Shown: positions 33,681 to 63,381 of the stretch, piece after piece
Position numbering within the stretch: the first letter of the stretch is position 1
Layout of the letters: every line of letters starts with the position of its first letter
Assembly (NCBI RefSeq): GCF_964340395.1
Contig: NC_135553.1
Span: forward strand, 24,400,449 to 24,464,448
DNA length: 64,000 bases
From: Glandiceps talaboti
Taxonomy: Eukaryota; Hemichordata; Enteropneusta; Spengelidae
Direction of reading: 5' to 3'
Notes under the pieces: generated by a model
The model's database searches: none
Seen by the model: only the letters and a program-made list of their open reading frames with translations
Told to the model about the DNA's origin: nothing
Made by a program: the position numbers and the translations under genes

Positions 33681-33838
33681 TCACAGTAAATCTTGGATGT
33701 GTACTTGTCGCCTGATAGCATTGGTAAAACCTTCACAGTAAATCTTGGATGTGCACTTGTCATCTGATAGCATTGGTAAAACCTTCATAGTAAATCTTGG
33801 ATGTGCACTTGTCGTCTGATAGCATTGGTAAAACCTTC
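33681..33838 (-). repeat. 52-bp triplication of the CHTF18 terminal coding segment
   Basis: On the minus strand, the unit from ggttttaccaatgctatcag through gacaagtgcacatccaagat to ttactRtgaa occurs three times. The first copy is the end of the open frame ([15 protein letters not shown], stop at 33785-33787). The other two follow in the 3' UTR with few differences. Since 52 is not a multiple of 3, they are out of frame. Confidence 0.9.
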
Positions 33839-36800: not shown

Positions 36801-38011
36801 AGTCATTGTGTAAATGTACACCCAATACCCTGATTACAACTATGACATTATTCAAATGAAGTCATTATGTAAATGTACACCCATTATAAACCTGATTACA
36901 ACCATGACGTTATTCAAATGAAGTCATTATGTAAATGTACACCCAATAACCTGATTACAACCATGACGTTATTCAAATGAAGTCATTATGTAAATGTACA
37001 CCCAATAACATGATTTATATATAATAAAACATAACATTATTCAAATGAAGTCATTATGTAAATGAACATGCCCAGCAGAGATGAACACAGGAGTTAACAC
37101 ATTAAGCATCGTCATTCTGCATGTCAAGTGTACACATGATAATTTACATGTAATTATGCATACATCCAAAGAGATTCATCAGCTTGGTTTCATGATATAT
37201 ATATATAAAGGTTATTTTTACCACAAGCAGGAAATGTTACCTTGTCCAAATAATTTGTCTAGACTTGATTGACTTCAGTGGACTGAATATCTTCAATTCC
37301 AAAGCATTGGTCAATAATCATGCCATGCCATTAACACCTGGCAAAAATATCCAGTCCACTGAAGAGGTAAATCGAGTCTAGACGAAATATTTGGGCACGG
37401 TAACATTTCCTGCTTGTGGTAAACATAACCTTTATATATGTAATTATGTTACAGTTAATTTAACATACAAGGGTTTGATAATGACTTTAGGGATGTGGCT
37501 TTCTGAATCAGTTCAAATGGTTCTAAACACAAGCTAGTTGGTTTTCCAGGGCTATGAGGTAGGGCAACAGCTAACAGTATGACACGGCAACACAGCTGGT
37601 AATGATATTATTGGATTTTGCAATATGTACATTTTAAAGTACAAGTCTTACCTCCCTTGCTACCAACTGTTTTGTAGCATATGTCATTTGTTTCTTTGTA
37701 GCTGTTCCACTGAATTTGATGACTTCTTCTACGTTTCTGAAAAAGACAACCAACATATTGCAAAACTATTCAATCAGGAAAGAACGAACTAGTAATATAC
37801 AAAAACTAAATGTTGCAATACTTTATCATTGACAAACACATATAAACACTCACCACACACATATAAACACACACCACACACACACACACATATATAAACT
37901 CTCCACACACACACATGTAAACACTCACCACACACACATATAAACACTCACAATTTTCACACACACACACACACACTCACCACACACATATAAACACTCA
38001 CACAAGTTACA

Positions 38012-38071
<60 letters not shown>

Positions 38072-41000: not shown

Positions 41001-41126
41001 ACGAGATTTGCCATTTGAAAAAGCATTAAATATTGATAAAACTTTCACAAGTCACAAAAATACACACATATAAAAAGAACTTACACATATGCTGACACAC
41101 ACACACATACACACACATACATACAT

Positions 41127-41157
<31 letters not shown>

Positions 41158-44100
41158 CATACACATACACACACACAAACACACACACACACACGCACAC
41201 ACACACACACTGACAAGGACTGATCAGCATAACATGATACCTACTGCTTCAAAGTAAGGATCCTTAAACTTGACAGTTAGGAAATTATCAAAGATTCCTA
41301 TAAAAAAGAAAACAGTGATAAGTTATTGACTTGTATGGTACTCCTAAGGTGAGTTGACAAGTTCATGTTCATTATTGCGTTGGTTCGCATTTTGAGAAAC
41401 GATACTATATAAATTACCAATAAATATAATGATGCACGCCATTAAAAAATGGCAGCTGTAGTCTGAAGTAATAAAAGTAGATAAAACCAGGTCTGAAAGG
41501 AAACAGCCGAGTACGAGTTTGACAATATGAAAAGGATGATTCTAAATGCAATGATGAGATGCACTCTAGAAGTTCAATGTTGTGGCAATGAAACATGGAT
41601 CACAGTAGATAATTTTAAAAGTACTAGGTAATATTGGAAATGTAGCTTGTAACACCTACAAGACCGATGAGTCTGCAATGCAATGGATACATTGTACAGA
41701 ATAGCTGAAGCAAAGAATTTTTAAACACAGTAGTCAGCAATAAATTGTGGAGTAGCCAGTTATTTCAGCCCCCTAACACCACCTTTTATCTACATCCCTG
41801 GGTAACCTGCTAAAAGATTTGCAAACTACTGTCTAGTACAGGAAAGTGATAGTATATATGTAAATTCTGTAGACAAAGATTTTACCTTGTGTAAGTTTTC
41901 CATACTCTCCATTTGACGTGACAGACTGGAGTATTTTATTAAACCGAGCTAACAGTGTGTTTTCCCTGGTCTCATCAACTTCTACACCTGGATTGTTCCC
42001 ATTTTCACCTGTTTCATGTGGATTATGGTATCGTTTCCTGAATGAGGAATGTCCAGACAAGACAAGACAAGACAAGACAAGACAAGACAAGACAAGACAA
42101 GACAAGACAAGAAAAGTCAGAAATTAATAAGTCAACTTTATGGAAGTCAACAAATATAAACAAAAAATTCCCTAAAATGAACAAGCCTGCATAGGAACCC
42201 TGCCCCATTGCATTATTTTTGTGTGACTAATGGATGAAATGAAGTTTTGTCCTGCCAATTTTGACCCTAAAGGTCTAAGGTCAAATACCATTATGCTGAC
42301 ATCTGACAATAAAGTATCTACATCATATGATTCCTGAGCTTCAGCACAAATGGTGGATGTATAGTAACTATCATTCATAAATACATGAGTGAGTGAGTGA
42401 GTAGAAAAACAGATGTTCAGACTGGACATATCATAGTGAGTTGAAAAACAGATGTTCAGACTTGACATATCATAGTGATCTGATGATTACTTGATTACTT
42501 GTATTTACCCAGTACATTTACAAAGTGTTTTCTGTACATACAATAGCAAACATTTCACACATCTTTTAATTTTTGCAGTTTAATGATTTGAAAAAAAAAA
42601 CAGACTTAGTTTATGTTGTTTCACATTGTCTTTCATGCAGAAAATATAGGTGACGTTGTTTTATCAATTAAAATCCAACTTCTATTTCGTTTAATACACA
42701 TGAGGGGTAGTTCAGCAGTCAATGCACTCAGTGTCAGGCCTTTCCTCTAATGGCCCTTCTTTCTAGAGTTCTCCAGAAAATTCAGGAAGAAGGACAAGCA
42801 AAATTAATACCCATGTCTCATCTATATGGATACTTGAAATAAAAACATACCTCTTTGGTTTGGGAAGCTGAAACAATTCCTGCCATACTGTAAATAATCC
42901 TTTGTGCTGGTCCTTCTGACCAATACTCAGAGAATGAATTAATTGCAAAGTAAGTTGCTTGTAACGACCACTTACAAACTGTATGAACACAAACACAGAC
43001 ATTTTGTTTACTGTATCTATCTGTAGCGACCACTTACAAAATACTGTACAGACACAAACACAGACATTTTGTTTACTGTAACTATCTATAGCGACCACTT
43101 ACAAACTATACGGACACAACTAGGTATTTTGTTTACTGTATCTGTCTGCAACAACCATTTACACTTTGCAAAATATTAGTTCAATAACTTAACATAATTT
43201 TTATGACAAATATGGCAGCCAACCACTTCATTTGGGACTAAAAAAGATTGACTGTTTGCAGTCAATAGCTCTCAGCTTATCAAATTCTGTTGTGTGGTGG
43301 TTAAAATGTTAGTACTCAATGACAGGATTGTTTAAAACAGCAGTTGATTCATTGATTCATGTACTAGTGAATGGAACAATACCATATTTCCCGCTTCTTT
43401 TGTATGGGGGGAGGGGGGGTGTCTTTTGTTTTGTTTTCTTGGTTTTTTTCTTTTATAGGGAGTGTATATTGGGGGGGGGGGGGGGGGGGGGGGGGCTTCT
43501 GTATGTGATGAACCAAAAGACCTACCTGTAATGTATTTATACATGACCTGATATCATTTTCTGCCTTCTGGCACAGAGCTAACATTGTAGTTTGGTCTGT
43601 CTGCAAACGGTTGTTTCTGGCAATCTGAATTATAAATAAATGTTAATTAGATAAGAATTTTGACACAGTGTTATCATTGGTAGTCGGGTCTGTCTATCAA
43701 CAGTTGTTCCTGGTAATCTGAATTATACATATATGCTAATTAAGTAAGAACACTACTATCATAATCTGAATTATACATATATGCTAATTAAGTAAGAATT
43801 ATATCATTGGTAGTCAAGTCTGTCTATCAACAATTGTTTCTGGTAATCTGAATTATACATATATGCTAATTAAGTAAGAATGTTAACACTACTAGCATAG
43901 GTCGTCGGGTCTGTCTATCAACAGTTGTTCCAGGTAATCTGAATTATAGATATATGCTAATTAAGTAAGAATTATATCATTGGTAGTCAAGTATGTCTAT
44001 CAACAGTTGTTCCAGGTAATCTGAATTATATACCTTTATAAATACTTGTTGATATTATGATTGTGATTATTTAACGTTTCACAGCAAAGTTTGATATCAA

Positions 44101-47100
44101 ATGAAACCTACTTCATATAGTCGGGATGCTAATCTTGTTGACATGGTTGGTGGAAAGTGTAAAACAACCGCTTGCTGTCTAAGTTGACGCAGTGATGGAA
44201 CATATCTACAATGGTAAAAAAGGAAAGGTCACAGTATACGCAAAGATGTACATGTAAATTGAAAATAGATTAAATCAGTAACACCTGAATACTAGTACAA
44301 GTACCAGTGCCACACTCATTTAATACCAAGTATACAATACCATGGTTTCATTTTATTTGGACAGTGTCTTGACATTTCCAAGGTGTATCAAACCAACATT
44401 TTCATGAATACAGTCTCCAAAAGGCAACTAATTTCACAAAAATACAATGATGGACTTCTTTCCTGTAGTTTCATTTACCGTATAGTCCAACATTAGGAGA
44501 TAAAAACTCTGTAATACTCTCTAAAACTGCAGTTTCGTAAGCACTCTCTTTGTGCTCTGTGAGCGTGTTACATGGTTGAAGTCATCTAGCATAATGAGTA
44601 TCATCTGAATCCAACTCCCAATTTATATGCAGAGTAGGTCTTTAATTATTAGTTTAGTTGGAGGCTGAATGCCATCACAACTTTAAATCTATCTCCCAGT
44701 GAGATGTAGACAAAATGCTTATGACATCATCACTTTACACTCTATCTCCCAGTGAGATGTAGACAATGCTTATGACAGTATCCATGGTAACACTTTAGTC
44801 ACCGACTATATACTTGCTTTGCACTGTTACAGATTCGGCCGACAGTTGGGTCAAAGGTTAGATTGCTAGGTCAAAGGTCAAAAGACTTACTGATCATTGC
44901 AAATACAAATGATTGGTCTGAGTAACATGAACTGGTCTTTCTTTTTCTTTTTACTTGGTGCACCAGGTATGGAAGGACGGTCACTGCCAGTGTCTCTCTT
45001 CTTGAGAAGTGACAACAAAACATTGATTGCAGGCTGAAATAGTATCATAGAGTTAATTTATTATCAAAAGTTGTTGATTTATCATTATTACATAATTATC
45101 ATTATGATAAATATGGAGAATGCAGAATCTGTTATTAAACAAACGTCAGAACATACCACAGGATGCACGAGCAGAATGGTAAATTGGAAATAAATGCTAC
45201 ATTTCGATATGTCTACTATGGACCTTGCGTTATCACGATCCGTAGTATAGATGGAAACATCACATTCATTTCCAATTTACAATTCCAAAATAACTATATT
45301 TCACTTGTAACAGCCATTATCTCTTTTACAAGAACTCGCACTGAAAAGGGTTAATCAGTTTACACTTTTATCAGCTGTGTAAATAGCAGACCAATCATGG
45401 GAGTTCTGTCAATTTCATCGATGAGCTAAAAACTGGGAACTTACTGCTGGAGCACCATCTATTTCATCTATAATCAAACAGTTTGGTTTGTGGTCTTCAC
45501 TTAACACCGACTGCATCTGTGTAGCTGCTTCTATCCGTGTACGGAATATATCAGGACTTCTATCATCACTGCAATGACAAAATGTCATCCCATCAAGTCT
45601 TTTAAAGTGACGCAAGCTGAGTTTATAAACATTTTACTCACAAGAAAATACTTACCTCGATTACCGTATAACATTAATGTCAATGCATGCATCCTATGAC
45701 ATCACAATTGTCTTCCAATTTTGTAAGACAGTTGATTGCCCTGTATGGATTCCTCGACATATTTTGGTACGTATCAAAAATTATGTCATCGGATCGTTTA
45801 TTTGTCATATCTTAATACCAGGTCAATGTTGCAGCCAGAGGGGGTTTTTGGGTCATTTGACACACATTTTTTGGACCTGACCCACAATTTTGGAAGTGAC
45901 GGGTCATAGATGACCCAACCCACGCTAAAATTGTATGCAAATATGTTTAGCAACATGACCACACCTATAGCAACAGCCAAATGATCGCATATATTGCATA
46001 GATAACAACAGGAGTAGAGGGGCAACTGCATAATCATTCAGCAAATATCTAGCATAGATCAGAATGTGGGTAAATATTTTTTTTAAACTGTACAGTTGTG
46101 CTACAATGCCAATGATTGGCGCTTTTTTTTATGTCCCTTGAAAATTTATGATGACCCAGAAAAAAAAAGTCTCGAGGCACTATGTCCCACTCTTTCAAAA
46201 GGCTGGCTGCAACACTGCCAGGTTTGAGTTCAGTCAATTACAAGTGATAATTATGTTTGCTTCAGTAAGTAGAATACTACGAGTCACTTTTAAACATGCA
46301 GCATATATCTCACCCAAAAATGTATCAACTCAGCTTTTGCCCCTTTAAGTTGTTTTGAACAAAACAACTGCAAAGTTTAAAGACTTGTTATTTCTGACAA
46401 ATTAAAGACATATACTATGTTTAGTACAAATGAAATCTGTTATACCCTTACCTGGCATTCATTTCAACTACATTGTATCCGGCGTGTTTAGCAATGATGT
46501 GTGCTAGGGTAGTCTTACCAAGACCTGGTGGACCACACAGCAAAGCCACTTTATGGACTGGTCTTTTGTGAATATCTAGATCCTGAAAACAACAAAACAT
46601 ATCACCACATGATAAAATAAATAACTAGATATTATTCCCCAATATTGTTCTTTATTCAACCAAGGAAAATACAAGTGAACATAGGGGTCTATGTCACTAC
46701 AAGTCACTAGATGAATAGTGACAAAACCCTTAGGTCACGAGTATTTTCCGACTGAATGAAGAAATATTGGAGAATAACATAATTATACCAATGCCAATAA
46801 TATCAAAGAAAAATCAGGGAAAGTAATGGTAATTTTGAATGTTTTGACTCATATTTTGAACACAGCAGAACCAGTGATGTAGACATGCATTGTCATGACA
46901 ACAGATGTGCGTTGTCATGACGTAGAATGACCACGTCCACAATACAAATTCCACATTTTTTTGTTCTACTTGACTTGTGTATTATATAGTATAGCAATCA
47001 CTATTATACCAGGTTTTGAATATGATTGTGACTGTATTCTTGAAATGAAGAGATAGAATGCCACAGTATAATGAACATCATCCAGTAATCACCACAAAGG

Positions 47101-50100
47101 TGATATTATAGTAGGAAATACAAATAATACATTAACATGCCTAGTAGTTCTTTACCTATACTGTACCTTGCATTAACAAGTAAAAGGTAATTTTGTCATA
47201 GTGCCATTTGGTCTTAGAAGTTAGATAACAAAAACTTAAAATCACTCTCGTGTTGACATATCTTTACATGATGACAATGAACTTTTAATATATTCTAGCA
47301 ACGGAGGTCTTGGTTTTACTGCAATAGACACAAACTAAAACCATTGTTGTTCAATATGGTAGATTACACAAGTGGATGATAATAGTGCCTCCGTTGTGCA
47401 TATCTGATCACTCTGTCATCAACATAGTGTAAACACTGGAAATTCCAGAAAAATATACTCTACATCGATCATGGAAGTCATAAAAATGTCACACATTAAA
47501 GCAACGTTCATTCAATAGCTTATAGCAACATGTAGTCATGACAGTTTTAGTTTGTTTCTATCTTAGTAAACAGAGAGACATTGACTGCCAGTATAGTAAA
47601 TCAAAGTAAGCCAAAAAGTAACCAACTAAATGACTCTGTCTCATGTCATGCATCTTCAGAAAACCAATTCTTGATGCATTGATTCTCTCTCTCAGCATAA
47701 GCATTGACAATATCATCGCTGATTACACTTACCTCGATCACTTCTTCTTGTTGCTGCCACTTTTTATTAAACTTATTTTGCTTTTTTGGATCTTGTTGGT
47801 TTTTTGTTGTAATTTTTAATTCCTTGCCAAACACCACATAATCCCATAGTTTTAGCCAATGTAGCAGAGTTCTATTAGTTCCATCGTCACTCAACAAGTC
47901 TGTATAATTTCTGGGAGTGTATTTTTCCACCCATAATGAACTCTTTGTTTTCTCACTCTCTTTTTCATTTTTATCATTCTCTTCTGTGTCTTCAAAGACA
48001 GCATCCAGTTGCCTTTATGGAAATAACACAAAGATTAACGTAAATTATACAACCCATAACACCCAAGTCAAGTGTTTCCATGGATTAATGTAAATAATAC
48101 AACCCATAACACCCAAGTCAAGTGTTTCCATGGATTAATGTAAATTATACAACCCATAACACCCAAGTCAAGTGTTTCCATGGATCAATATATTATACAA
48201 CCCATAACACCCAAGTCAAGTGTTTCCATGGATTAATATAAATTATACAACCCATAACACCCAAATAAAGTGTTTCCATGGATTAATGTAAATTATACAA
48301 CCCATAACACCCAAGTCAAGTGTTTCCATGGATCAATATATTATACAACCCATAACACCCAAGTCAAGTGTTTCCATGGATTAATATAATTATACAATCC
48401 ATAACACCCAAATAAAGTGTTTCTATTGTTTACAAAATTATTTATAGAATTCATATCAAATTTAAAAGTATACTCTTTCAATTGCTTTAATTGTGAATCT
48501 AGTATGTAACTTTTTGAACAGACTCTCAAAGTAAAGTAGATAAAATCTAAACAAGTTTCCCCATTTTTTTACCAGGGTTTCCAACCAATATTATGGTATG
48601 GAAATGTGTTCCTGAGTGTTTTATTGGTTCCCGCCAAATCATGGTACGACAAGGTATGGAAATCAGTGTGATTCACCAGATTACATCACATCTATCAGCA
48701 CATCTATGACCTGGGTACAAATACCTACATACATCCTCTTTCTTCTGAGGAGAGTATTTGCTTGTATAAAAAAACTACAAGTTGGGAAAGACAGGATAAG
48801 CAAAGATATTGTATCCACTGTAACTTATCAAGCAAACACAACAAACTAATTACACTGAGTTCTTGCAATGTCCTCAAATTGGGTTTCCCACTATTTCTAA
48901 AGTGTTCTGAACTTTTAGTAATTTTATGTCAAAAAGAAATGCATTGCATGTTTTCTTTCTTACCGTGTTAGTGTTGCACTTATTCTTTCAGATTCAACAA
49001 GAACTTGTTTCCTCCTCTGCCAAGAAATATACATTCAAGATAAATAAAAAATAAATTTTAGAAAAACAAAAACTGATCTTTTTTATGAATATTTTTTCCA
49101 AAAAAAAGAAAAGAATTATTATTCTAACAGATGGATATGAAAGATGTTTTAAAGGAACGCTATACCGTATACATCTCAACTATCACAGATATGTTTCTGA
49201 ACAGCACTCCTAGTGGCCAAACTATACAATCTTTTGTTTTTTTCTGATAACTGGAATATGGCATAGTATAAATCGATTCCTTTAAGTCAAGTTGTACATG
49301 TACTGTACCAGTGATACACTTCAGAGTGAACTACCTAAAACATCTCACACACTACAAATATTGTAAACTGATAGGTCAATGTATATGTTTAAAGGACAAT
49401 GTCGGATTTGACTAAAATTTGGGTATGTCAAACAGTTGTAAATAGTAATCCAAAAATGTAAAATTTGAATATTTAGATATTATTCTCCAATATTTTCTTC
49501 ATTCAGCCAAGGACAATACGAGTGACTTAAGGGGCCTTGTCACTATTCATCTAGCAACTAATACATGTGTAAGTGACAAATTCTTAGGTCACGAGTATTT
49601 TAAAGTTCAATAAAAAAAATATTAGGAAATAATATAATTATACCACCTCAAACATAATTTATAATTTATTAAATATTAGGAAAAATAATGGAGATTTGGA
49701 ACATTTTGACCTATATTTTGAGCACCACAAAACTAGTAACATGTAGACAAGGGTTGTTGTAACATAGAACAACCTGGGTATATAATCCATATTTTCTGTT
49801 CAAAGACAATAACTTGGCTTCTGCATAGAATAATGGTATTTAATCAAGTACCCATGTGGCCAGCATTAGTTCTTTCCCAATTTTTTTACTCCAATTTAAA
49901 ATAAACAATAATTTTTTTCAGTGCAACATGATAAAATTTATAATCTGACCGTACCTCATCTTCTACTTGTTCCTTCAAATCATAGATTGGTGTTGACAAA
50001 AGTTGAAATGAACTTTGACCTCCAAGTACATCCTTGTACTGACACTTCTAAAATTAAAAATTACAAAAAAAAATTGTAGTCAAACATAAAATTGAGATGG

Positions 50101-52993
50101 AATTGATTCTATGATACCTTAAAAATAAGGAAACTTAGAGAATAACATTTGCCACATTTGTACCATGTATTGATTAAATTAGATACAATTGGCAATTTTC
50201 GACATTCAAAATTTCTTTCCCCAGCTTATGAATACCAAAATCTGAATATTATTATCATTTAACTTTCACTTCTAATTAAACTCACTTGTGATATTGTAGT
50301 CTTTGATATTGACAAAAAATTTAATAAAAAATTTCCCTTTTTATCAAATCTCAAAACCACCCAAAACATGAAGAATTTAGTTTTTAACTTGCTTTCATGA
50401 GACTTGAAGCCGTTTCACATTTTACCCAAGAATGAGGAAAGCCATGAACACAACGAGTAACACCTACTTGAGTTTTCCTGTCATTTTACCTGATTTCCCA
50501 ACCAAAATTATATAAATATGTATGCCAGTTTTACTGGATTTCCCCCTCTCTGTTACAGGGGTTGCAAGACCTCAGCAAAACCACTGGAAATAAAATAATA
50601 TCATTATATACTATATAGATGTAATTACATCCAAGCTTGTTACCTTTGTCTTGCGTATTGTGTCAATGTCTTCTTTCATTCTGATGTAGCGTCTCTGTCC
50701 ATCATAGCCAGTCACCGTCATAAACGGACAGTTTGGTTCCCTTGTTAACAGACAACTTTGATGCTTTGACAACTTCTTGTCAACCAAATCAACATTTACA
50801 CTTCCTTGCCCAATGACATTGAACTCGTCAATTTTTGGTGCTCTATAGTGTTGTATTTTTCTCATCAATATCTCATCAGCATCTGGAGAAGGTGGTGGTG
50901 TAATCTCAAAATCATTGTCTTGGGGCTGAGGTTCCGGTGTTCTTTCTCTCTTTTCTCGTATTCTGGGTTTCTTTCTTCTAGGTGCTGTGAAGGACAGAGG
51001 TCAGTTTTAGAACCGTAAAACATCATGGATTATATACTCTGATAAAACCTAAAGGCCAAGTTTGGATATGGATTAATATTTAGTTCTGAAATAAAGTTCA
51101 GATTAGGATTAAAATTTAGGCGTGAGAACAGTTGTCTGGCAGAGCTGTACAGTACTATATATAGACAAACTTGGTTCTGAACAAAAGGATAATCCTATGT
51201 AATCCTGACACTAAATATCCCTAAAGCAAGAACCTGGGATTGAAACCCTGGCCTTTAATGGGGTACAGGCAAGGTTTCTTGCATTAGTGTTATCAGTGGA
51301 TTACATTGATTACACATTATTTTGTACTGTATCAAGATAGTCTATAGCCTGGTCTGCCAGACAACTGTTTCTCACATCTAAAGTTTAATCCAAATTTCAA
51401 CTTTTGACCAGAATAAGGGTCTCGTCATGACGCAACACCATTTTCCCATGTTCCAGCTGGCACCCTCTGATGTCATACGCCAATGTTGGTTTTTCATCCA
51501 ATCTGGCCCTAATTGTATACTTCATAAGACTACAACTGCCCTTATTTTCATATGACAAAATTGGAATACATTAACTTACATGGTAAAGGTGCATCAATGA
51601 CAAGTTCACCATCACTGTCAGATAGTGGATCATAACCTTCATCTTTATCACGTTTCCTAGACTTCCGATCTTCAAAATGTTTTATCCCAGTAGGAGTATC
51701 CCCAAGATTGTTGTGTCTTCTAACATCGTTGGCTTTCAGTGTTGCCGTATCATTTTTGACCTCAGGTGGACTGATGACTCCATTGACCGCTGACCCCAAG
51801 TCAGGTGACTCTAAGCTTGTCATCACCGGCAGTGGTGAATCCTCCATACATGGCTTTGTATTTGTATGTTTTGGGGTTGTGAAATGCAGTGTCTTTTTAG
51901 AAAGAGAAGGAGCACTTGGAGGTGGGATATCAATATCTGCAATGAAAATAATGTATAGAAATGTTAAATATAGCTTTCTGGTGAAATAGAATGATCATTC
52001 TAACATCTTTTCTTTTAGAAAATTATTTTCCGCTAAAAGTAAAAGTCTTTCAATGTACTGCACAGGACACTTTGCTATTAGTAATTGTAGTGTGTGTTGA
52101 GTATAGACTAGTTCCTATACTGTATCATTACGATTTATACCTTCATTCACAGTACAGTCAAAACTGTTGCTCTACATGCTCTAGAAGTCCTGAGATGAAT
52201 GAGATGCAATTTAAAATTCATCCACAGCCATCCACACAGTCATTAACATCATGTCTTTGGTAATCAATCACAAAATTCTAACCAATAACACAGTCCCTCA
52301 TAAAGTAAGTGTTTATTGGGGAACTTATGTAATGTCCAAATATGGTATATTTGTCAGCTCAGGATACTTATACACTGTTACTGTCACTATCACAGCTGGG
52401 GTTCATGGTTACTGATTAGATGAACAACTTTCTGTGTCAATCGAGGAGACTTTGACCAGCCTGTGGTTTAGATCACAGTTGGCAACCAGACTATGAGTAT
52501 AACTATAAAGATATATTAGTATTAGTTACTCTCTGTAACAAAGTTTTATAATCAGTCCAACTATAGTACAACACACCAAAAAATTGGAAACAGTAAATAA
52601 ATTATAAATAAATATTTGAAGTGTGGAGACAAGGAATGTAAACTCAATATACAGTTTGGTAAATGTTTTCATGTCATATTTGTAGACTGTGCTAGTAGTA
52701 GTACTGTGTTGATATATTTCAGTGTCCAGTATTCTAAGTTGAACCATACACACAAAGTTGCCCCCAAAACTACAAGTGGGCTTCTTTGAGTATACAGCTG
52801 CTACGAGTTTACACATTATGTTATTATGACCATCTTATGATTTAATGACAGCAGAATTCAGCTGCTTATAACTTATATAAGTTGTAGAAAAATACCGACC
52901 TTCCTCCATTTCATTCATAAGTTCAAGTTCGTCAGCATACTGCTGTTCAAAGTCATCATATTCGTCCATGAGTCCTGGATCGAAGTTAGCCAT
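33785..52993 (-). CDS. CHTF18: CHTF18, large subunit of the alternative CTF18-RFC clamp loader, 22 exons
   Basis: Exons (minus order, high to low): 52993-52900, 51936-51580, 50984-50644, 50047-49955, 49016-48964, 48012-47733, 46582-46452, 45568-45445, 45033-44891, 44205-44112, 43624-43526, 42978-42851, 42037-41886, 41297-41245, 40589-40419, 39651-39502, 38510-38380, 37736-37652, 36529-36471, 35234-34982, 34853-34796, 33915-33785. Every junction is GT-AG, phases close, and the product is 1059 aa (human about 975). Order: acidic N-terminus, [17 protein letters not shown] (AAA+ entry), Walker A GPPGLGKT (about 423-430), Walker B LIIDEID (Asp484-Glu485), sensor [23 protein letters not shown]-fold helices, then the conserved FFGRII and [11 protein letters not shown] tail that in the family binds DSCC1-CHTF8. 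It acts in the nucleus in PCNA loading and sister-chromatid cohesion. A 42-bp coding repeat lengthens the C-terminal linker. Confidence 0.95.
34006..34440. repeat. Intronic minisatellite, about 60-bp unit, in the last CHTF18 intron
   Basis: Around seven copies of tagttgccaWggtgacagat, ttgacatRgccRatagYaac and taStttgcatgacacatata. Three minus-strand frames are open across it and encode Cys/His-rich pseudo-repeats (CQICHxGNY). The CHTF18 exons flank it at 34796 and 33915, so these are not exons. Confidence 0.9.
35033..35198 (-). repeat. Coding minisatellite (42 bp, about 4 units) inside CHTF18 exon 20
   Basis: The unit encodes [14 protein letters not shown] four times, with variants ([12 protein letters not shown] at one end, AVPRH at the other). 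It preserves frame because 42 is a multiple of 3. It lies in the linker between the RxxE helix ([12 protein letters not shown]) and FFGRII, a region that is variable and disordered in the family. Confidence 0.9.
35278..35590. repeat. Dispersed repeat family A, copy in CHTF18 intron
   Basis: Blocks ttccccaacattttt, ttcaaccaaggaaaatgcaa, gtgacctaaggggcc, cagaaccagtgac and ataatccatattttctgttc match 46620-46990 and 49470-49830. The second hairpin arm present in those copies is missing here. Confidence 0.6.
36060..36440. repeat. Dispersed repeat family C, copy 2
   Basis: Counterpart of 3781-4120: cgcctcggggccaatttcca, tctccaaactttgcc, ttcaaggaaata, gcagccatgttggat and tttctgaggcac in the same order, within a CHTF18 intron. 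Confidence 0.5.
36765..37062. repeat. Intronic minisatellite, about 61-bp unit, 5 copies
   Basis: Units of cacccaataacctgattaca, accatgacgttattcaaatg and aagtcattatgtaaatgta repeat with small differences in a CHTF18 intron. Confidence 0.9.
37200..37440. mobile_element. Hairpin MITE in CHTF18 intron, about 240 bp
   Basis: The left arm (tatataaaggttat, taccacaagcaggaaatgtt, acc..gtccaaata, gtctagact.gat, cttcagtggactg) is complementary to the right arm (cagtccactgaag, gagtctagac, aaatatttggg, gtaacatttcctgcttgtgg, ataacctttatata). The loop is about 70 bp. Confidence 0.8.
37845..38252. repeat. CA-rich compound microsatellite in CHTF18 intron
   Basis: Alternating (CA)n, aaacactcacacaca-type units of about 30 bp, a pure (CA) run near 38010-38070, and (TGCACG)-like repeats near 38205-38230. 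Confidence 0.9.
38720..38960. repeat. Dispersed repeat family E, copy 2
   Basis: Same ordered blocks as 1090-1275 (catacctgtatgcaaatg, ttgttccttgaacatgaaat, aatagtatcagaacccc). Confidence 0.45.
40076..40335. mobile_element. MITE family D, copy 2 (260 bp)
   Basis: Ends ctacgatacacacaaatct and tagtttgtgtctatcttag. Internal blocks (attgttgttcaatatgg, cacaagtggg, gcctcc, aaaataccaccctacc, atgtccatta) match 20675-20954 and 47320-47566. It lies in a CHTF18 intron, ending 84 bp from the exon at 40419. Confidence 0.7.
41090..41212. repeat. CA-rich microsatellite in CHTF18 intron
   Basis: Interrupted (CA)n with taca and aaac variants. It ends 33 bp downstream, in gene order, of the exon ending at 41245. 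Confidence 0.9.
42056..42113 (-). repeat. (CTTGT)n pentanucleotide repeat next to a CHTF18 acceptor
   Basis: About eleven gacaa units on the plus strand read as pyrimidine-rich cttgt on the transcript strand. The array starts 18 bp upstream of the 3' splice site at 42038, so it overlaps the polypyrimidine and branch-point zone. Confidence 0.9.
42957..43145 (-). repeat. Tandem copies of the CHTF18 exon 12 acceptor edge
   Basis: Plus-strand units beginning gYgaccacttacaaa…cacaaacacagacat and then tttgtttactgtatctatct recur about every 60-65 bp (about three copies). The first spans the true acceptor and the first ~20 exon bases (exon starts 42978); the others are intronic and carry altered AG sites. 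Confidence 0.8.
43471..43495 (+). repeat. Uninterrupted G25 homopolymer in CHTF18 intron
   Basis: Twenty-five consecutive G on the plus strand, preceded by further G-rich sequence near 43407-43418. The intron RNA would carry C25 because the gene is on the minus strand. Confidence 0.9.
43590..44035 (-). repeat. Tandem copies of the CHTF18 exon 11 acceptor edge
   Basis: Plus-strand unit ggtctgtctatcaacagttg, ttcctggtaatctgaattat, acatatatgctaattaagt and aagaa occurs about five times. The first copy spans the real acceptor (43625) and about 38 exon bases. The others fill the intron up to 44111 and keep the ttcag|att acceptor sequence. Confidence 0.85.
46620..46990. mobile_element. Dispersed repeat family A, fullest copy, with internal hairpin
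   Basis: The first 150 bp form inverted arms (ttattccccaatattgttct, ttattcaaccaaggaaaata against tattttcc.actgaatgaag and aaatattggagaataa). A 3' portion with cagaaccagtgatgta, gtcatgacgtagaatgacc and attccacatttttttgttc follows. A second hairpin-bearing copy is at 49470-49830. Confidence 0.65.
47320..47566. mobile_element. MITE family D, copy 3
   Basis: Ends caatagacacaaactaaaac and gttttagtttgtttctatct, complementary over about 17 bp. Internal blocks are shared with the other two copies. Confidence 0.7.
48025..48420. repeat. Intronic minisatellite, about 50-bp unit, 8 copies
   Basis: Units tacaacccataacacccaag, tcaagtgtttccatggatta and atgtaaatta repeat directly upstream (in gene order) of the acceptor of CHTF18 exon 6 (exon starts 48012). 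Confidence 0.9.
49470..49830. mobile_element. Dispersed repeat family A, copy with hairpin
   Basis: Blocks tattattctccaatattttc, ttcattcagccaagg, gtgacttaaggggccttgtc, ttaggtcacgagtatttt, gaacaacctgggtatataat and ccatattttctgttc correspond to 46620-46990 and 35278-35590. CHTF18 intron. Confidence 0.6.
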
Positions 52994-53328
52994 TTTTGTG
53001 ATCTTCTCCGTAAATCAAGAAAGCAACTTGCAAAGCTTACACGAAAACACCGACAACAACTTTGAAAATCACTAGAAAATGGCTCTGCGACATCTTTAGA
53101 AATTTCCCGCGAAAGCATTGAGCATGCGTAGAATACTTATACCGGAAGTTGTATTCACCGGAAGTAAATACGGCGTGTTCGGCTGGAAGACTTGCAACTA
53201 TAAACAGAAGCATCTGCTCCTCATGTGAGTTGAGTTAGGAAAGAAGAGGGTTTACTTTTGAACATGCTGGAGTCATTCACAACTGAATTGAAGTCCATAC
53301 TTTGAAAGTTTGACATGATCTGGTAAGC
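52994..53328. promoter_or_regulatory. Bidirectional CHTF18/RPUSD1 promoter with E2F and tandem ETS sites
   Basis: The start codons of two divergent genes are 335 bp apart. The gap holds a perfect palindromic E2F consensus TTTCCCGCGAAA (53103-53114), an NRF1-like GCATGCG (53122-53128), and two ETS/GABP sites CCGGAAGT (53142-53149 and 53158-53165) spaced 16 bp. These site types are typical of TATA-less housekeeping bidirectional promoters, and no TATA box is evident. E2F fits S-phase expression of CHTF18. Both 5' UTRs must lie in this interval unless non-coding exons exist. Confidence 0.75.
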
Positions 53329-56300
53329 ATGGAAACAGAAGCGACCCTGGATGACATTTCAGTTTTATACAAAAGCGAGAATTACGTGATTGTCAACAAA
53401 CATTATGATGTAATGATTAATCACCAAGATCCAAATCATGACGTCACAGTGAGTAACCAGTTAAAAAGATTACATCCTGAACTTGCAGACACCACAGTGG
53501 TACATGATTTCAGGTATGTCAATCCATAGACCCTCCATGCATGAGTCTACTGGTCAATCCACAGGGAGCTCAGGCTCAGTTTTGTTTGCAAATACAAATA
53601 AACAAGTAAACAAACACAAACAAACAAGTAAACCAACAAACAAACATAAACAAATAAACTGATTATTACATGAATAAACAAACAAACACTACCCCCCCAA
53701 AAAAAAAAAAAAAATGGAGACTCCATTGGTGACTGTTTTGGAGGGGTAGTTTGTTTGTTTGTTGTTGTTTATTCATGTAGTAATCAGTTTATTTGTTTAT
53801 GTGTTTGTTTGTTTGTTTGTTTGTTTGTTTGTTTGTTTACTTGTTTATTTGTATTTGTAAACAAAACTGAGCCTGAGATCCATGTGGTCAACCTCATCAT
53901 GGATGTATTAGTGGATGTATTCTCCCCCAATACATCCATGATCTGATTAAAATCTGATATGGTGAAAGCGGCTTTATTTCTTTATTTACCTCTATTTCCA
54001 TCTCTTTTTTGTCAATTTTTTTTCAATTTTTGTTCTGGGTGTGATCACTGAACATAACATCCCACTGCTGCCACCAATGTTAAGAGTTAGAACAAAGCAC
54101 CAGAACTCAAGAGTTGTCAGAAACCTTGATCTACTTGTGTAATCAGTATGATACACTACTTTCACCCCCAGAACAACAAAACAAAAAAGAACAACAAATA
54201 AGTGAACAAATAGGGGTACATAAAAAATCAAGCCGTTTTCACCACATCAGATTTTAATTAGATTAGTAAACTGTTGTCCTGCTTGCAGACGATTCTAACA
54301 GTCCCTTTCATTTAGGGATAATGTCAGTATTGAGTCCTGTACTCTATCTGCTGGCAGGACTATGTAAACTGCTGCATCAGTGCATGTTACTTAAAAAATA
54401 CTGTCTAGCAGAATGCACCTCACTTAAAGTACTGAAAGTTTCCGAATGGCAAAAGTCCTTGGGTAAAATTTGAACCATAATTTTACCCAGTCAACCCAGG
54501 GGACATGGTAGGAAATACATTGCAATGACAAGTCATGAATGTATTTTCATACAGTATTTTTCCACACTGCTCAAAGTGCCCCCAGACCTTTAGTGACACA
54601 GTTGCCCTATATACTTCCTCAACACTCTGGGAATGCATGTAATTGCATAAAAGTAAGATTCATGACAGAAAATGTAATGCACTCCATGCACAGTTGGGGA
54701 AAGCTCCATGTAAAAATACAGCATGCGCATCCAATGACCAAGAGAAAGCAAAGCAAGTTCCCAGTTTGCATTTAATTTATTAGGTATAGATTGCATTATA
54801 CTTTGTGCAGTCTACCAGTGGCTTTTTATCTGGCACATTCTTCATCAGAATATTTTATTCATTTAAATGCCTGCACATATGAGAAAACAGAATTAATAGT
54901 TCCACTTTTTTGTAAACAACTTGCTTAGTCATGTTCTACATGAGATTGAGAGATTGTCTTTAATTTAAAACTCTCAAATGAATGAGTTCATACTTGTGTA
55001 TGAGAAAAAAAAGGGGAGAAAAAGTTATTATGCATTCTTCAAACAAGTTTGGGTCCTTATTCAATTATTTCATAAGGTTAATATACATTTATTTCCAGGC
55101 TATGAGGGCACTAGTAGACATCTATAACCACAAGGGTTGTCAGCAACTATTTCCTGAGGCTACAGTTCCAGAGTTAAAGCTGGCTGCAAGCCGAGGGAAA
55201 GTGTTCCTACATAACAGCACAGGGGAGGGATAATTTAATATGACATCTACTAGTGCCCAAGTAAGTCCAGGCAATATTGTTTTTCACATTCTCAGACAAA
55301 TATCCTTTCCATAGTCAAAGCAAATCATCGGTAGAACAGGCTACATGAATAGTGCCCTATGGAAAATAGAATGTGACTAGTGTCTCACTTTATGTAAATT
55401 GAGGTCACTAATCCATACCATGTGACACGAGCTAAGCCAATCACTGAAGACTATGAAAGTGATGTGTTATAACATCAGTTATTCTATGTCTATTATTTTC
55501 TAAGGTTTGTTCATCAATTGGATTATTCAACCAGTGGTGTACTGTGTCTGGCTTTAAACAAATCAGCCTGTGCTGTAGCTACAAAGTTATTCCAAGAAAG
55601 ACTAGTACACAAGGAGTATGTGGCACTGGTAGGTTCATCACTATTAACGTAGAGTCTATAATGCAGGACAGTACAATATAGTTACTTTGGAATGGTAAAT
55701 TGGAAATGAATGCAACTTTTCAATCCATCTGCTACGGACCTTGATCATGCAATGATTTTAGCCACCAACATCAGACAAAGAAGACTCATCATTAACAGAG
55801 ACCAAGGATACCAACTACCATCAATTTATGGTCATATTATTCCGCCAGTCCAGAGAGAAACATCAATGCTGAATAATTAAATCATTGTGTAATCAAAGTC
55901 TGTAGTAGATAAATAGAAACAACGCATTCGTTTCCAATTTATCATTCCAAAGTAACTATATTGTACTCTCTTATTGATTCTTGGAATCCATGAACAATAT
56001 CCTCTCCACTCTATAATGCACTTTTATTGCTACAGTAAATATATATATTAGTTCTATGAGATACAGTCAATGTATATATTAGTTCTATGAAATCATGTTT
56101 TCATTGTAAATGTCACTGGAGAACTTCTGCATATTGTCATCCAGGTCAGTAAAATACCAAAATATTTTGTAACTTTGGTATCGCATTTTTGTCCAGGTCA
56201 GAGGTCATATTGATAAAGACTTCATAGAAGTAGAAAAAGAAGTTGCTGAGAATCTAGAAGATGGATGCAGTCACATGATGTGTGTACCAAATGAGTCTTC

Positions 56301-57828
56301 CCAACTCTACAGTAACAAGAAATCTGCTTTAACTCACCTCCAGGTCCAACATAGAGGGCGCTATGATGGTAAACCTGCTACCAAAGTCCTATTATTTCCT
56401 AAAACAGGTAATATTCTTCAGTGCAGCACTAGAGTTCTCAGCATGTATTTGGTAATACATCAGTGGTGTATCACTACCTTTGTTATTTGATTGTGTATGT
56501 AGTCTTTTCTGTTCATTCTACTTGGTGTAGTCATAGTTTGTTCAAGTTTTAGGTTGACAAAACAATATTTATGTTAAACAGAATGGAATTAATTTTTCTT
56601 CAACTGTAATAAACGGAAAGTCCAATCAGACATATTTCTGTCTTTAGTACACTTGTATTGATTACTGCTATCAACTTAAAGAAAAAGTCCAGTCAGACTT
56701 ATTTCTGTATTGATTACTGCTATCAACTTAAAGAAAAAGTCCAGTCAGACTTATTTCTATCTTTAGTACACTTGTATTGATTACTGCTATCAGCTTAAAG
56801 AAAAAGTCCAGTCAGACTTATTTCTGCTTTAGTACACTTGTACTGATTACTGCTATCAACTTAACTTACGTATGATTTTGGGTGATAAAATAGTGCCTCG
56901 GTAACTTACTCAACTTTTAAAATCTTGTAATGAAGCCCTCCTGCTCAAGACATGCCTTAGGCTATTTTGGGGATTTTGAAGGATATGTAGGAAAACCTCT
57001 GTTGATCATGTGATGAATACCCACATCTCTATATCTTAATATATACAGTGTAGTAAAGGCACAAATATGCCTGACTTGGGTTTTCCTTTGATTTAAAATA
57101 GTTATGAATGTATTTAGCAAGATCAGAGGTTATTTGATGCATCACAGTAATAATATCACAGTGTAATTTCCTCCCATATGTTATGAATATTTCGAAAAGT
57201 TTTAAGTTGATCTAGAAATTTAAAGACCCCATAATCATAATTTTTGCGTGTTATAAAAATGTAAAGAGAAAGGCCATCTCAGATTAGGATTAAAAGGGTT
57301 TGTGAGAAAATTGGTTGTCTGGGAGAACTATCGAAAAAAATAGTCTTTAAAGGCCAGGGTTTCAATCCCAGGTTCTCACATTAGTGTTATCTTCCATGAG
57401 GATTACATAGGATTATTCTTTTGTTGTGGACCAACAAGCTCTGCCAAACAACTTTCTTTCATAACTAAATTTTAACCCTTTCTCTAAGCGGGCCAACAAA
57501 AACTACATCAATCTAATCATTATGGATTGACATGATCACACAGCATTAATCCAAGAATCCAGGATTGAATTACAAATCTTTCTACTGTGTGTTACTACTT
57601 TGTATTGCAGGTAGAAGACATCAGCTGCGAGTACACTGTAGTTCTATTGGTCACACTATCATAGGAGACTACACATACAGTCTGAGACAAGATACAGAAC
57701 CTTATCGTATGATGTTACATGCACATAGGATTATCATTCCAATACCTAATGAGCATATCGATGTCACAGCACCAGATCCATTCATGCCAGAAATTGACCC
57801 CAAATGGCAGCCGCTTGCAGCAAGTTGA
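53329..57828 (+). CDS. RPUSD1: RPUSD1-type RluA-family pseudouridine synthase, 4 exons
   Basis: Exons 53329-53513, 55505-55628, 56197-56407, 57611-57828, all GT-AG and in phase, give 245 aa. Human RPUSD1 is longer (about 312) through a C-terminal tail missing here. Motifs: VIVNKHYDV (N-terminal RluA motif), catalytic loop HQLDYSTSG with the active-site Asp at 55521-55523, KEYVALVRGHI, then GRRHQLRVHCSSIGHTIIGD and RMMLHAHRI. HQLD instead of HRLD is, as I recall, shared by vertebrate RPUSD1. The family isomerises uridine to pseudouridine in RNA; the targets of this paralogue are uncertain. Start 53329 opens the frame with a purine at -3. Divergent partner: CHTF18. Confidence 0.92.
53569..53877. 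mobile_element. Fold-back element built of (AAAC)n/(GTTT)n in RPUSD1 intron 1
   Basis: The left arm ctcaggctcagttttgttt… with caaacaaacaagtaaac and gattattacatgaataaac is complementary to the right arm gtttattcatgtagtaatc…gtttgtttac…aaaactgagcctgag. The centre is a C7/A-run near 53694-53712. Confidence 0.75.
53946..54258. mobile_element. Second hairpin element in RPUSD1 intron 1
   Basis: Outer arms attaaaatctgatatggtga + aagcggctt pair with aagccgttttcaccacatca + gattttaat. Partial complementarity continues inward (tgttctgggtg with cacccccagaaca). About 313 bp. Confidence 0.75.
55106..55258. repeat. 153-bp unit with 13-bp terminal inverted repeats, containing an open frame
   Basis: GGGCACTAGTAGA (55106-55118) and TCTACTAGTGCCC (55246-55258) are exact complements. 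An acceptor-like ttatttccag precedes at 55090-55099. The frame from there reads AMRALVDIYNHKGCQQLF and VPELKLAASRGKVFLHNST before a stop at 55231-55233. It is not needed to join RPUSD1 exons 1 and 2 and has no family counterpart. It may be a MITE remnant or a poison exon. Confidence 0.5.
56625..56862. repeat. Intronic tandem repeat, about 68-bp unit, in RPUSD1 intron 3
   Basis: Units of cagtcagacttatttctgtc, tttagtacacttgtattgat and tactgctatcaacttaaaga + aaaagtc repeat about four times, one lacking an internal segment. Confidence 0.85.
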
Positions 57829-58873: not shown

Positions 58874-61800
58874 TTATTCCCTTTGTATCATTTTTTGTAA
58901 TTTTAGGTTCCCCGCCCATTTCATCACAAAGTCCCATTTCTGCGTTGGTCTACGTTGGCATGGTTTTAGCATTGCTGTCCGGATTATTGCGTCTTTGTGA
59001 CGTACAGACTTCGGCTCATCAAGACACAACCCAGTTGCTGAGTGTTCCAACATACGAGTCTGATGACAAAATAAAAATGTGGGGGAAATGTCATAGAGAG
59101 AAAAAATATAACGACTTTTTCCTTTGTTTCACAATTTTTTTAAAAAGAAACCCTGAAAGCTCTGCCATACAGCAGGAAGATCAATTTTGGTAGTGCAAAC
59201 TACAGCACAAACTCAAACTAACCAGTACTAATAACCTGTGACTGTGGCAAAATTTAGCATTTTGGTTACAGTATACTCAAGTGGCAATATCACAGGTGAC
59301 AAGAACAGCATCAACTTTAAAGTGATCAATCCAGAAGACAGTTATAACCCAGATATTGTCGAATAGGGCTTAGATTATGGAGGAGAGGCATGTATCTTGT
59401 TTCAAAGCACCTTATATCCGTCATATTTATCTTAAATGTCATGGTATTCTTCTGCACTATTCTCTACGTTAAGAATCAATCTCTCGGCAGTATATAGTCT
59501 GGAAATATGCCGGTGGTGGGCCGATAGGCAGACATGACGTATTTTACAGTCTATTGACTCGGATGACAACATGAACCCAGAATGCCATCCACGAATTTGT
59601 GCTTAAATAATATCGGAAATAGTACAGTGCTCAACTGTTTAGACGAATTCCCAGATAATACATTGGGTGCGAACACCAACATCTTACAAGTGAATGGTCA
59701 TTTATAACCGTCTACCAACCTTTTGGTGATATCTCCATTCCTGTGATCCTCCACGTCGATGGCATTTCGATATACGGACGAGTGTATCCGGTGGTAGGTA
59801 CGACAAACACGTCCCGTCTACCCGAATTTCATTACGTTTTGTGTATATTATTAACTGGTGCTGAACAAAGATAGAAATAAAGAACATCTAATATACCAGA
59901 CATAACTCTACTTTCAAATCCCCATTGGTCAATTTACTTCATTGCTATACAGTCATTGCAGCTCTGGAGAACAGTTAACCTGTGGTGCCGACATCGACAA
60001 TACAAGAGACACTATCAGGGAAATTCTGAACTCTTTTATCAAACGTAAAAGTTATGCTTCAAATGATATAAGCTTATATGAGTGGTACGAGTATTTTTGT
60101 AATCTTTATCAGCAATGTGGGGATTCAGAGCGTGGTGATAAAGATTTTCTACAGTCAGTTGATGATACTTTAAAGAATTTGGATTCGTTATTTACTCCAG
60201 GTGAAGTTGACAATGATCTAAATGCTCCGATCACAGAAAATGAAATATTGGCAAGTTTGAAATCTGGAAAGGCTCCTGGTCTTGATGGACTACCTGGTGA
60301 ATTTTACAAATACTCTGTAGATATTATTATGCCTTTTCTTTCTGTCTTATTCAATTCAATTTTTGAATCGGGAAATTTCCCCGATACATGGTCACGAGGG
60401 GTCATCATTCCATTGTTTAAGAAAGGAGACAAAAATGACGTAAACAACTATAGGGGCATATCACTATTGAATGTTCTTGGGAAGATTTTCACGTCTATCT
60501 TAAACTCTAGGCTATCAAATTGGGCTGAAAGTAACAATATTATTTCCGATTGTCAGGCTGGTTTTCGTAAGAATCATAGCACTGTAGACAACATTTTTGT
60601 TTTGCATGCCGTAATTCAAAAATATTTAAGTGTCAGAAAAGGCAAATTCTATTGTTTATTTGTTGACTTTTCTAAAGCCTTTGATAAGGTAAACCATTCT
60701 TTATTACTGTATAAGCTTTCTGTTCTTGGTATTGATGGCAATATGTTTTCCATTTTACGTTCAATGTACTCAAGCGTAAAGTCTTGTGTTAAGTCAGGTG
60801 AAATTGCGTCGAGATCTTTTGATTGTCCAGTTGGTGTTAGACAGGGCTGTATGCTCAGCCCAATTTTATTTACATTTTTTATAGAGGAACTAAATAATAT
60901 GTTAATTAATTCTGATTCTATTGGCATTCAATTAACACAGGATTTGCATGACCTTTTCTCATTGTTATATGCAGATGATGTTGTTATTTTTGCGGATACA
61001 GTTGTACACTTGCAAAGACTTATCAATATTTTAGGTCAATTTTGTGAAAAATGGAAAATGAAGGTAAATATGGACAAAACGAAAATTATGATTTTCAGAA
61101 AGGGGGGGCATAGAGCCAAATCGGAAAAATGGGTTTTGAATGGGCAAATTATTGATGTTGTAAGCTATTACAAATATTTAGGTCTACTTCTCTCCTCCAG
61201 AAATACTTGGGGCAAGACCGTTGCTACTTTAGCTGAGCAAGCAAACAAAGCTCTGAATATTTTGTTAATTGCAAGTAAAAGAATTGGCGGTTTCCCTTTT
61301 GACATACATTTCATGCTGTTTGATACAATGATCAAACCCATTATCCTGTACGGCTCTGAAATATGGGGCTATCAGTGTTATGATATTATTGAACGTCTTC
61401 AGCGTAGATGGTGTAGGGTCTTTCTGGGCTTACCACCTAGTGCGACTAACGAGGCAGTTGTAGGAGAGTGTGGACGCGTACCAGTTTTCGTATGGTCACT
61501 TAAACGTTGTGTTAATTTTTGGCTTAAATTAATCGAGCTACCTCCCCATCGATTGCCTCGTCAAGCGTATCTTATGTTATATAATTTAGATTTAATGGGT
61601 AGACACAACTGGGTATCCTCTGTTAAAAATATTTTATATTCTTATGGGTTTGGACAAGTATGGCTTTGTCAAGAAGTAGGAAATAAGGATATCTTTATTA
61701 GCGAATTTGTAGCAAGAGCACAAGACATTTCGAAACAATTATGGTGGACTCATATACAGTCTAAACCTAAATTGCGTACATATGTAAATTTTAAGAGTTT

Positions 61801-63381
61801 ACTTGAACCCGAGAAATATTTATTTTTGAACTGTGATTTTAAAGTACGACAGATTATGGCATGTTTTCGGTGTGCATGTTTGCCTTTAGCTATTGAAACA
61901 GGTAGACATGAGGGTATAGAAAGTACGGCTAGATTTTGTCAAATTTGTAAAAGAAATATGATTGAAGACGAGTACCATTTTTTGTTTGAATGCTTCCTTT
62001 ATAATGATTTGAGATTGAAATTTATTCCAGAGAATTTCATACTGTTTCCTAACCTATGTAAATTTAACCGTCTGATGGCCTCAAAAGATGATGCTGTCCT
62101 TAGGAAACTATCAAGTTATATCTATAAGGCTTTTCAGATACGTAAAGAAATTTTGTCTTCAAGTTAAGTGTTGATTCTGATTTTTTATAACTTTATCGTA
62201 CCTCTGTATGTTTGTATGTAACTGTGCTTTCATTTCACTGTAATGTAGATCCCTTGATTTCACGCACTCTGTAACTGAAAGTCATGATCTGACTTTGAAT
62301 TTTTTGTAACCTCCTTGCAAATGGGCCGGAGGCCTGGAAATGCAATAAAACTATCTATCTGACACTATCAGTTCTGATATTCAAATACATTGTATCATAG
62401 TTGGCGAACACTGACAGACATGCAACGTGCAATACAATATTTTATTTATCAGAATTTTTTTTTTCATTTTTTTTCATTCACTGCTAAGTCGCTTCTTGTC
62501 TGCACCATCAACATTATTTCAAATGCCTGCTACTTCTAAACTGTTATCCAGAGAAAAAACGAGGGAATCTGCAAGTATTTTCAGAGTCTTGTATCGTTTA
62601 ATAATGAATGTACGTATTTATCACAATCCAAGAAATACTACGTGTTCCTGTGGAATTTGTTCTATTCTGCAATTATTAGTTGGTGGGTCACGGTTTTTCC
62701 GGGTATAACACTATTTAAAGTGTAGCAGTGTCTTCTTTTTTCAAATTATATTTTGTTTTGTTTGCCTTCAGAAGATGATGCCAAGGTACACTGATATACA
62801 GCACATGATGACGTATAAGGACGTTACTTTACCTCATTTGTATTGTTATCACATTTCTTTACATACATGTATCTAGATTTATCCGAGAAGCCATAACGTT
62901 TAGATTCTATTGATAGTAGCCAAGGTGAAAAGTCAATGCACTCGTTCGTCTTATTATGTCGAACCTGTGGGGGAAAAACAGGTTCATTTTGAGTATAAGT
63001 CCAAACTCGGGCCACTGTGTAGAATTTTCTATAGTGGTCTGAGGTACAACTAAAGCAAGACGTCAATTCAAGAAAGACCGACCAACAATTTCGTATGTGT
63101 CATTGTCGTAAACCACGTCCTCTTTTACGGCACCGTCCTAGACCGTCCGTCCATACATTGTATATAGATAAAATAAATAAAAATAAACATACACAAACAA
63201 GCAAACGAACAAAATAAGTAAATGAGTAAATGAAAATACCTTTTTAAACTCATGGATACTATATACATGTATGTATGTATGTATGTATGTATGTATGTAT
63301 GTATGTATGTATGTATGTATGTATGTATGTATGTATGTATGTATGTATGTATGTATCTTTCTATCTATCTGTCTATCTATC

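Follow-up and report, generated by a model that had tools for sequence, protein, structure and literature searches.

In human bidirectional promoters, GABPA and E2F1 are enriched 7.1-fold and 6.9-fold, respectively, and stand first in Table 3 of the study concerned (PMC3121118). Among neighbouring genes of amphioxus, 25% are paired at a bidirectional promoter; for 372 promoters of this kind a chordate study traced a putatively ancestral origin, the majority having been lost in vertebrates (PMC6292497). In the present study, we analysed a 64-kb stretch of DNA (hereafter the window) in which the genes for CHTF18, a protein of DNA replication and cohesion, and RPUSD1, a tRNA-modifying enzyme, diverge from a common interval of 335 bp. 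We consider it likely that this short, CpG-rich interval serves both genes as an E2F/ETS bidirectional promoter; their divergent order was probably inherited from the bilaterian ancestor. ETS and E2F motifs together in a short CpG-rich divergent interval are a usual composition for a housekeeping or cell-cycle bidirectional promoter. Ancestral bidirectional promoters of animals were reportedly the subject of work by Irimia in 2012. The CHTF18-RPUSD1 interval seems to be a further example of these old shared promoters, a known class, and not a new type of system.

The layout of the pair is simple. The start codon of CHTF18 lies at 52993 on the minus strand and that of RPUSD1 at 53329 on the plus strand, which makes the two genes adjacent, divergent and head to head, with exactly 335 bp between the start codons (52994-53328, the proposed bidirectional promoter, to which no strand is assigned); the first-pass annotation had given the same divergent interval. 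The outer limits of the region, 52900 and 53513, mark where the first coding exon of either gene stops and a GT donor follows. No further gene was recognised between the two ATGs, and the stop-to-stop open reading frames (ORFs) that overlap the interval are 59-74 amino acids long. Throughout, local counts refer to the 64-kb window and genome-wide counts to the 590-Mb eukaryote genome, in which the window occupies positions 24400449-24464448 of its contig.

The RPUSD1 gene (53329-57828, plus strand) consists of four exons (53329-53513, 55505-55628, 56197-56407 and 57611-57828) with matching phases, which together encode 245 amino acids including a PseudoU_synth_2 domain (PF00849, 91.9 bits). 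Among the 12 chains listed, which do not include RPUSD2, the protein scored 231.8 bits against the RPUSD1 chain (PDB 5vbb, which we take to be human RPUSD1), far above RluA (67.1), RluD (60.5) and RPUSD4 (42.5). It is identical to human RPUSD1 at 108 of 234 aligned positions (46%) and carries the same HQLD motif and catalytic aspartate (D68, aligned with human D67); HQLD is common to the window protein and the RPUSD1 chain, and HRLD stands in the alignments with RluA and RluD (5 of 10 alignments shown). Of the NCBIfam models none reached its cut-off, the best being that of the general RluA subfamily with 122.7 of the 192.7 bits required. The wide gap in bit score to the other RluA-family enzymes listed identifies the gene as a probable RPUSD1 orthologue, and it is this gap, together with HQLD and the position next to CHTF18, that leads us to assign it to RPUSD1 rather than RPUSD2. 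The 245-residue protein is presumably shorter than human RPUSD1 at its C-terminus.

Two features of the RPUSD1 leader are recorded in passing. Three short upstream ORFs lie within 53223-53326 on the plus strand, namely, as counted from the RPUSD1 ATG, a methionine followed directly by a stop at -106, an ORF of 13 codons at -65 and MIW followed by a stop at -14, and a donor-like CTG/GTAAGC sits directly before the RPUSD1 ATG.

The CHTF18 (Ctf18) gene extends over 33785-52993 on the minus strand, as delimited by GT-AG exon borders, homology scores and the C-terminal tail. From the first coding exon (52900-52993) down to 43526, splicing at GT-AG borders joined 11 exons into a stop-free sequence of 603 amino acids, in which the small fifth exon was the sole candidate to pass the composition filter and aligns with the CHTF18 chain. 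Between 43526 and 33856 the exons are partly delimited and were recognised as separate stretches, and the C-terminal tail follows at 33856-33785, ending in a stop at 33785. The first-pass annotation had spoken of two complete genes; this holds for RPUSD1, and for CHTF18 it holds as far as the first methionine and the final stop, with only the 11 exons spliced and the remainder present as separate stretches. The assembled query scored 585 bits against the CHTF18 homolog chains, presumably human, and 171 bits against the Ctf18 chain 8twa_1, presumably from yeast; with a shorter query, the Activator 1 95 kDa subunit (RFC1) reached 65 bits. An AAA+ clamp-loader core, the C-terminal tail and the best match to CHTF18 together point to a CHTF18 orthologue. 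As a separate observation, a second copy of the end of the CHTF18 coding sequence is present at 33681-33734 (minus strand), about 100 bp beyond the original, which ends at 33785.

The interval between the two genes contains 12 CpG dinucleotides and has an observed-to-expected (o/e) CpG ratio of 0.88, as against 0.385 for the whole window; in the flanking 200-bp windows starting at 52501-52701 and 53401-53901 the ratio is 0-0.32. On its plus strand, at 53103-53114, lies TTTCCCGCGAAA, an E2F/DP-type site that occurs in a single copy in the window and in none of 100 window shuffles; it was also absent when the interval was dinucleotide-shuffled 2000 times (the percentages of interval shuffles given below are uncorrected for the number of motifs tried). 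TTTSSCGC is the E2F consensus, and a core of this type occupies 53103-53110, the distance to the start codon of CHTF18 being 110 bp. The site, which had been called a perfect palindrome, is an imperfect dyad: 10 of its 12 letters agree with the reverse complement. Further towards RPUSD1, two copies of CCGGAAGT, an ETS/GABP-type site, stand on the plus strand at 53142-53149 and 53158-53165 as a direct repeat, 16 bp apart from start to start as the first-pass annotation had reported. The window holds three copies of CCGGAAGT against 0.30 expected, a count reached by 1 of 100 shuffles, and two copies together appeared in none of the 2000 interval shuffles. Two weaker plus-strand matches, both post hoc, are GCATGCGT at 53122-53129 (0.85% of shuffles), a partial consensus which we take to be NRF1-like, and AAAATGGC at 53076-53083 (2.3% of shuffles, 11 copies in the window), which we take to be YY1-like. 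A TATAAA at 53199-53204 (plus strand), which precedes the start codon of RPUSD1 by 130 bp, appeared in 13.8% of shuffles and is not significant.

Apart from the pair, the window has its third CCGGAAGT at 6077-6084 in another CpG-rich peak (5820-6329), and the ORF around it matched the short-chain dehydrogenases weakly (adh_short, 23.5 bits with a cut-off of 26.6).

Genome-wide, TTTCCCGCGAAA is present in 61 copies and its reversed control in 11, an excess of 5.5 times; the 60 places other than that of the window fall in 57 loci of 4-5 kb, and 61 rows were compared. Likewise, there are 21 places (17 distinct sequences) where two CCGGAAGT stand no more than 30 bp apart, as against 9 for the control. 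These counts bear on the view that the motifs of the interval arose by chance or from repeats and have no function. The 11 control sites mean that some exact 12-mers do arise by chance, and the bare E2F core TTTSSCGC, much weaker evidence than the full site, appeared in 3.1% of interval shuffles and has 6 copies in the window. Moreover, CCGGAAGT lies within 250 bp of TTTCCCGCGAAA in 7 of the 61 rows, and 6 of these rows represent five loci of one dispersed repeat, so that the combination of TTTCCCGCGAAA and CCGGAAGT can be repeat-borne. Outside that repeat, the window is the only case among the 61 rows, and the surroundings of its site are unlike the repeat, by which a derivation of the window TTTCCCGCGAAA from it was ruled out. 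Taken with the absence of paired CCGGAAGT from all interval shuffles, this renders motifs without function very improbable. The repeat itself (L011, L017, L034, L042 and L063) carries CCGGAAGT and TTTCCCGCGAAA at an offset of 43 bp, with a second site at 76 bp in one locus, and is spreading pairs of E2F/ETS-like sites in this genome.

Some of the other TTTCCCGCGAAA sites also lie near recognisable genes. After the five repeat loci had been dropped, the remaining 52 of the 57 loci yielded 285 ORFs of at least 75 amino acids, 70 of them of at least 110; nine were picked by eye for Pfam and seven of the nine returned a family, a selection from which we claim no enrichment of cell-cycle genes. In locus L048, TTTCCCGCGAAA precedes an exon of the ribonucleotide-reductase small subunit (PF00268, 99.6 bits) by about 1 kb on the coding strand; this subunit is a textbook E2F target. 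Locus L046 offers a second divergent arrangement: the ATGs of a kelch ORF and of an ORF with an AMP-binding domain, the latter presumably SLC27-like, are about 606 bp apart (about 1505-2111), with TTTCCCGCGAAA inside and a CpG o/e of 1.01. Further genes near such sites include an intermediate-filament gene (L045), presumably lamin-like, an MSL2-like gene (L040) and two forkhead genes (L021 and L057).

The earlier proposal of a compact, CpG-rich and probably bidirectional E2F/ETS promoter between the orthologues of two human genes is well supported by the sequence. As we picture its operation, a GABP-like ETS factor on the two CCGGAAGT sites would open the region and permit constitutive initiation in both directions, and E2F/DP on TTTCCCGCGAAA would add S-phase control. 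Since the E2F site stands towards CHTF18 and the ETS sites towards RPUSD1, this S-phase modulation would be expected mostly for CHTF18, with RPUSD1, as its housekeeping neighbour, carried along. The divergent order was probably kept since the bilaterian ancestor because, if the pair were separated, one of the genes would lose a portion of its promoter. ETS and E2F motifs occur together here, as in human bidirectional promoters with GABP and E2F (PMC3121118, PMC3964217); the inverted ETS arrangement is reported to be enriched in human (PMC3964217), whereas the two sites of the interval form a direct repeat. GABP tetramer sites are reported to follow a periodicity of 10.5 bp (PMC9481613), and a tetramer on in-phase sites was rejected for this interval, as the spacing of 16 bp corresponds to about 1.5 helical turns and is out of phase. 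For this reason the two ETS sites are probably independent contacts.

Whether the pair is old depends on the comparison with human, in which CHTF18 and RPUSD1 are adjacent and divergent on 16p13.3, so that the same two orthologues stand head to head in both. From this human gene order and the present locus we regard the antiquity of the pair as likely. Were the adjacency to have arisen independently here and in vertebrates, with nothing ancient retained, two specific orthologues of some 20,000 genes would have met head to head twice, which by reasoning without calculation is very unlikely, and the human order speaks against it as well. So does a common neighbourhood on record: in a paper on ATR-16, CHTF18 and RPUSD1 share one self-interacting domain on chromosome 16 with GNG13 and LOC388199, and the passages concerned give no orientation (PMC7279195). 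Even with divergent pairs being frequent in compact regions (PMC6292497), we give independent origin hardly any credence. The interval resembles the ancestral bidirectional promoters of animals (PMC6292497) in its shortness, its housekeeping-type genes and its raised CpG. Our searches found no literature joining CHTF18 with the term bidirectional promoter; in the main texts of the bidirectional and divergent-pair studies searched CHTF18 was not named, nor was RPUSD1 where sought, and in the available part of the ATR-16 paper, which names both genes, we did not see the pair treated as a shared promoter. An attempt to find the pair in other animals via contaminating contigs was rejected: the RPUSD1 scan of viral contigs gave no relative, and that of prokaryote genome contigs gave a single bacterial RluA-type relative, from Neptunicoccus, at 29% identity.

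Several points weigh against an ancient shared promoter and should be set out together. The motif names were picked after the sequence had been seen; the evolutionary comparison comprises this locus and one other lineage, human. The CpG o/e of the interval is matched by 6.1% of the 335-bp windows in the 64 kb (15 clusters, its own included), so that CpG richness alone is weak, supportive rather than distinctive. Within 200 bp of the 61 TTTCCCGCGAAA sites CpG o/e has a median of 0.92, versus 0.78 in the far flanks, a modest difference, the flanks being those of motif-chosen loci and not a random sample. None of the 20 other tandem CCGGAAGT pairs has the 16-bp spacing, and the pair of the interval is, as described, direct rather than inverted and about 1.5 turns apart. 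One gene-order study reports close divergent pairs to be in excess in terrestrial vertebrates and not in fishes or non-vertebrate animals (PMC2871058), and according to a medaka paper promoters of this kind are not alike in vertebrates and invertebrates (PMC11676430).

Finally, bidirectional promoters usually lack a TATA box, and the TATAAA at 53199 could supply RPUSD1 with a core promoter of its own. This leads to the alternative of two separate promoters that abut by chance under independent regulation, one E2F-driven for CHTF18 (about 52994-53120) and one ETS- or TATA-driven for RPUSD1 (about 53130-53230), which would fit the position of the E2F-type site towards CHTF18 and of both ETS sites plus the TATAAA towards RPUSD1, each of them on the plus strand, and also the fact that divergent close packing is common in animals, as in the 25% of amphioxus neighbouring genes (PMC6292497). 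The E2F and ETS sites, however, fall within 63 bp (53103-53165), by our reasoning probably too near for insulation, and the TATAAA is at chance level. We therefore consider separate promoters unlikely, though less so than chance motifs or independent origin, and retain the shared bidirectional promoter as the preferred explanation.

Elsewhere in the window, an open reverse-transcriptase ORF of 753 codons (59906-62167, plus strand; PF00078, 137.8 bits), long interspersed nuclear element (LINE)-like, lies downstream of RPUSD1. A second reverse-transcriptase-like ORF (29021-30385, plus strand; PF00078, 32.4 bits) is situated in a GC-richer, retroelement-like stretch, and a minisatellite array at 11827-12339 has several frames open on both strands.

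As to function, the first-pass annotation took the retained pair to suggest a link between a cohesion/PCNA-loading factor and an RNA pseudouridine synthase. We regard this as an overreach, divergent housekeeping pairs being common (PMC6292497). Human RPUSD1 makes pseudouridine (Psi) at positions Psi30 and Psi72 in cytosolic transfer RNAs (tRNAs), and its D67A form is inactive (PMC12716993). A bolder scenario would place a tRNA pseudouridine synthase under S-phase (E2F) control since before vertebrates, through a promoter shared with the Ctf18 PCNA loader, with the capacity for Psi30 and Psi72 in cytosolic tRNAs rising with replication and RPUSD1 being an old bilaterian enzyme in cell-cycle-coupled supply; we think it a long shot.

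The age of RPUSD1 is a matter of its own. Vertebrate genomes are globally depleted in CpG. The present genome is a mosaic in this respect: of 114 1-kb end tiles from the 57 loci, 22 have a CpG o/e below 0.4 and 56 of at least 0.8, with an upward bias, as the loci were chosen by a CpG-containing motif. Such mosaic content suggests, short of proof, that the genome, which has at least 23 contigs of 16-36 Mb, is that of an invertebrate. Its RPUSD1 shares no more than 46% identity with the human protein. A 2025 study states that vertebrates evolved RPUSD1 (PMC12716993); if the genome is indeed invertebrate, RPUSD1 would be older than the vertebrates, that statement would need correcting, and Psi30 and Psi72 would be worth seeking in invertebrate tRNAs. 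The CHTF18-RPUSD1 pair would then be a well-delimited and easily tested addition to the old shared promoters of animals and a landmark for the age of RPUSD1.

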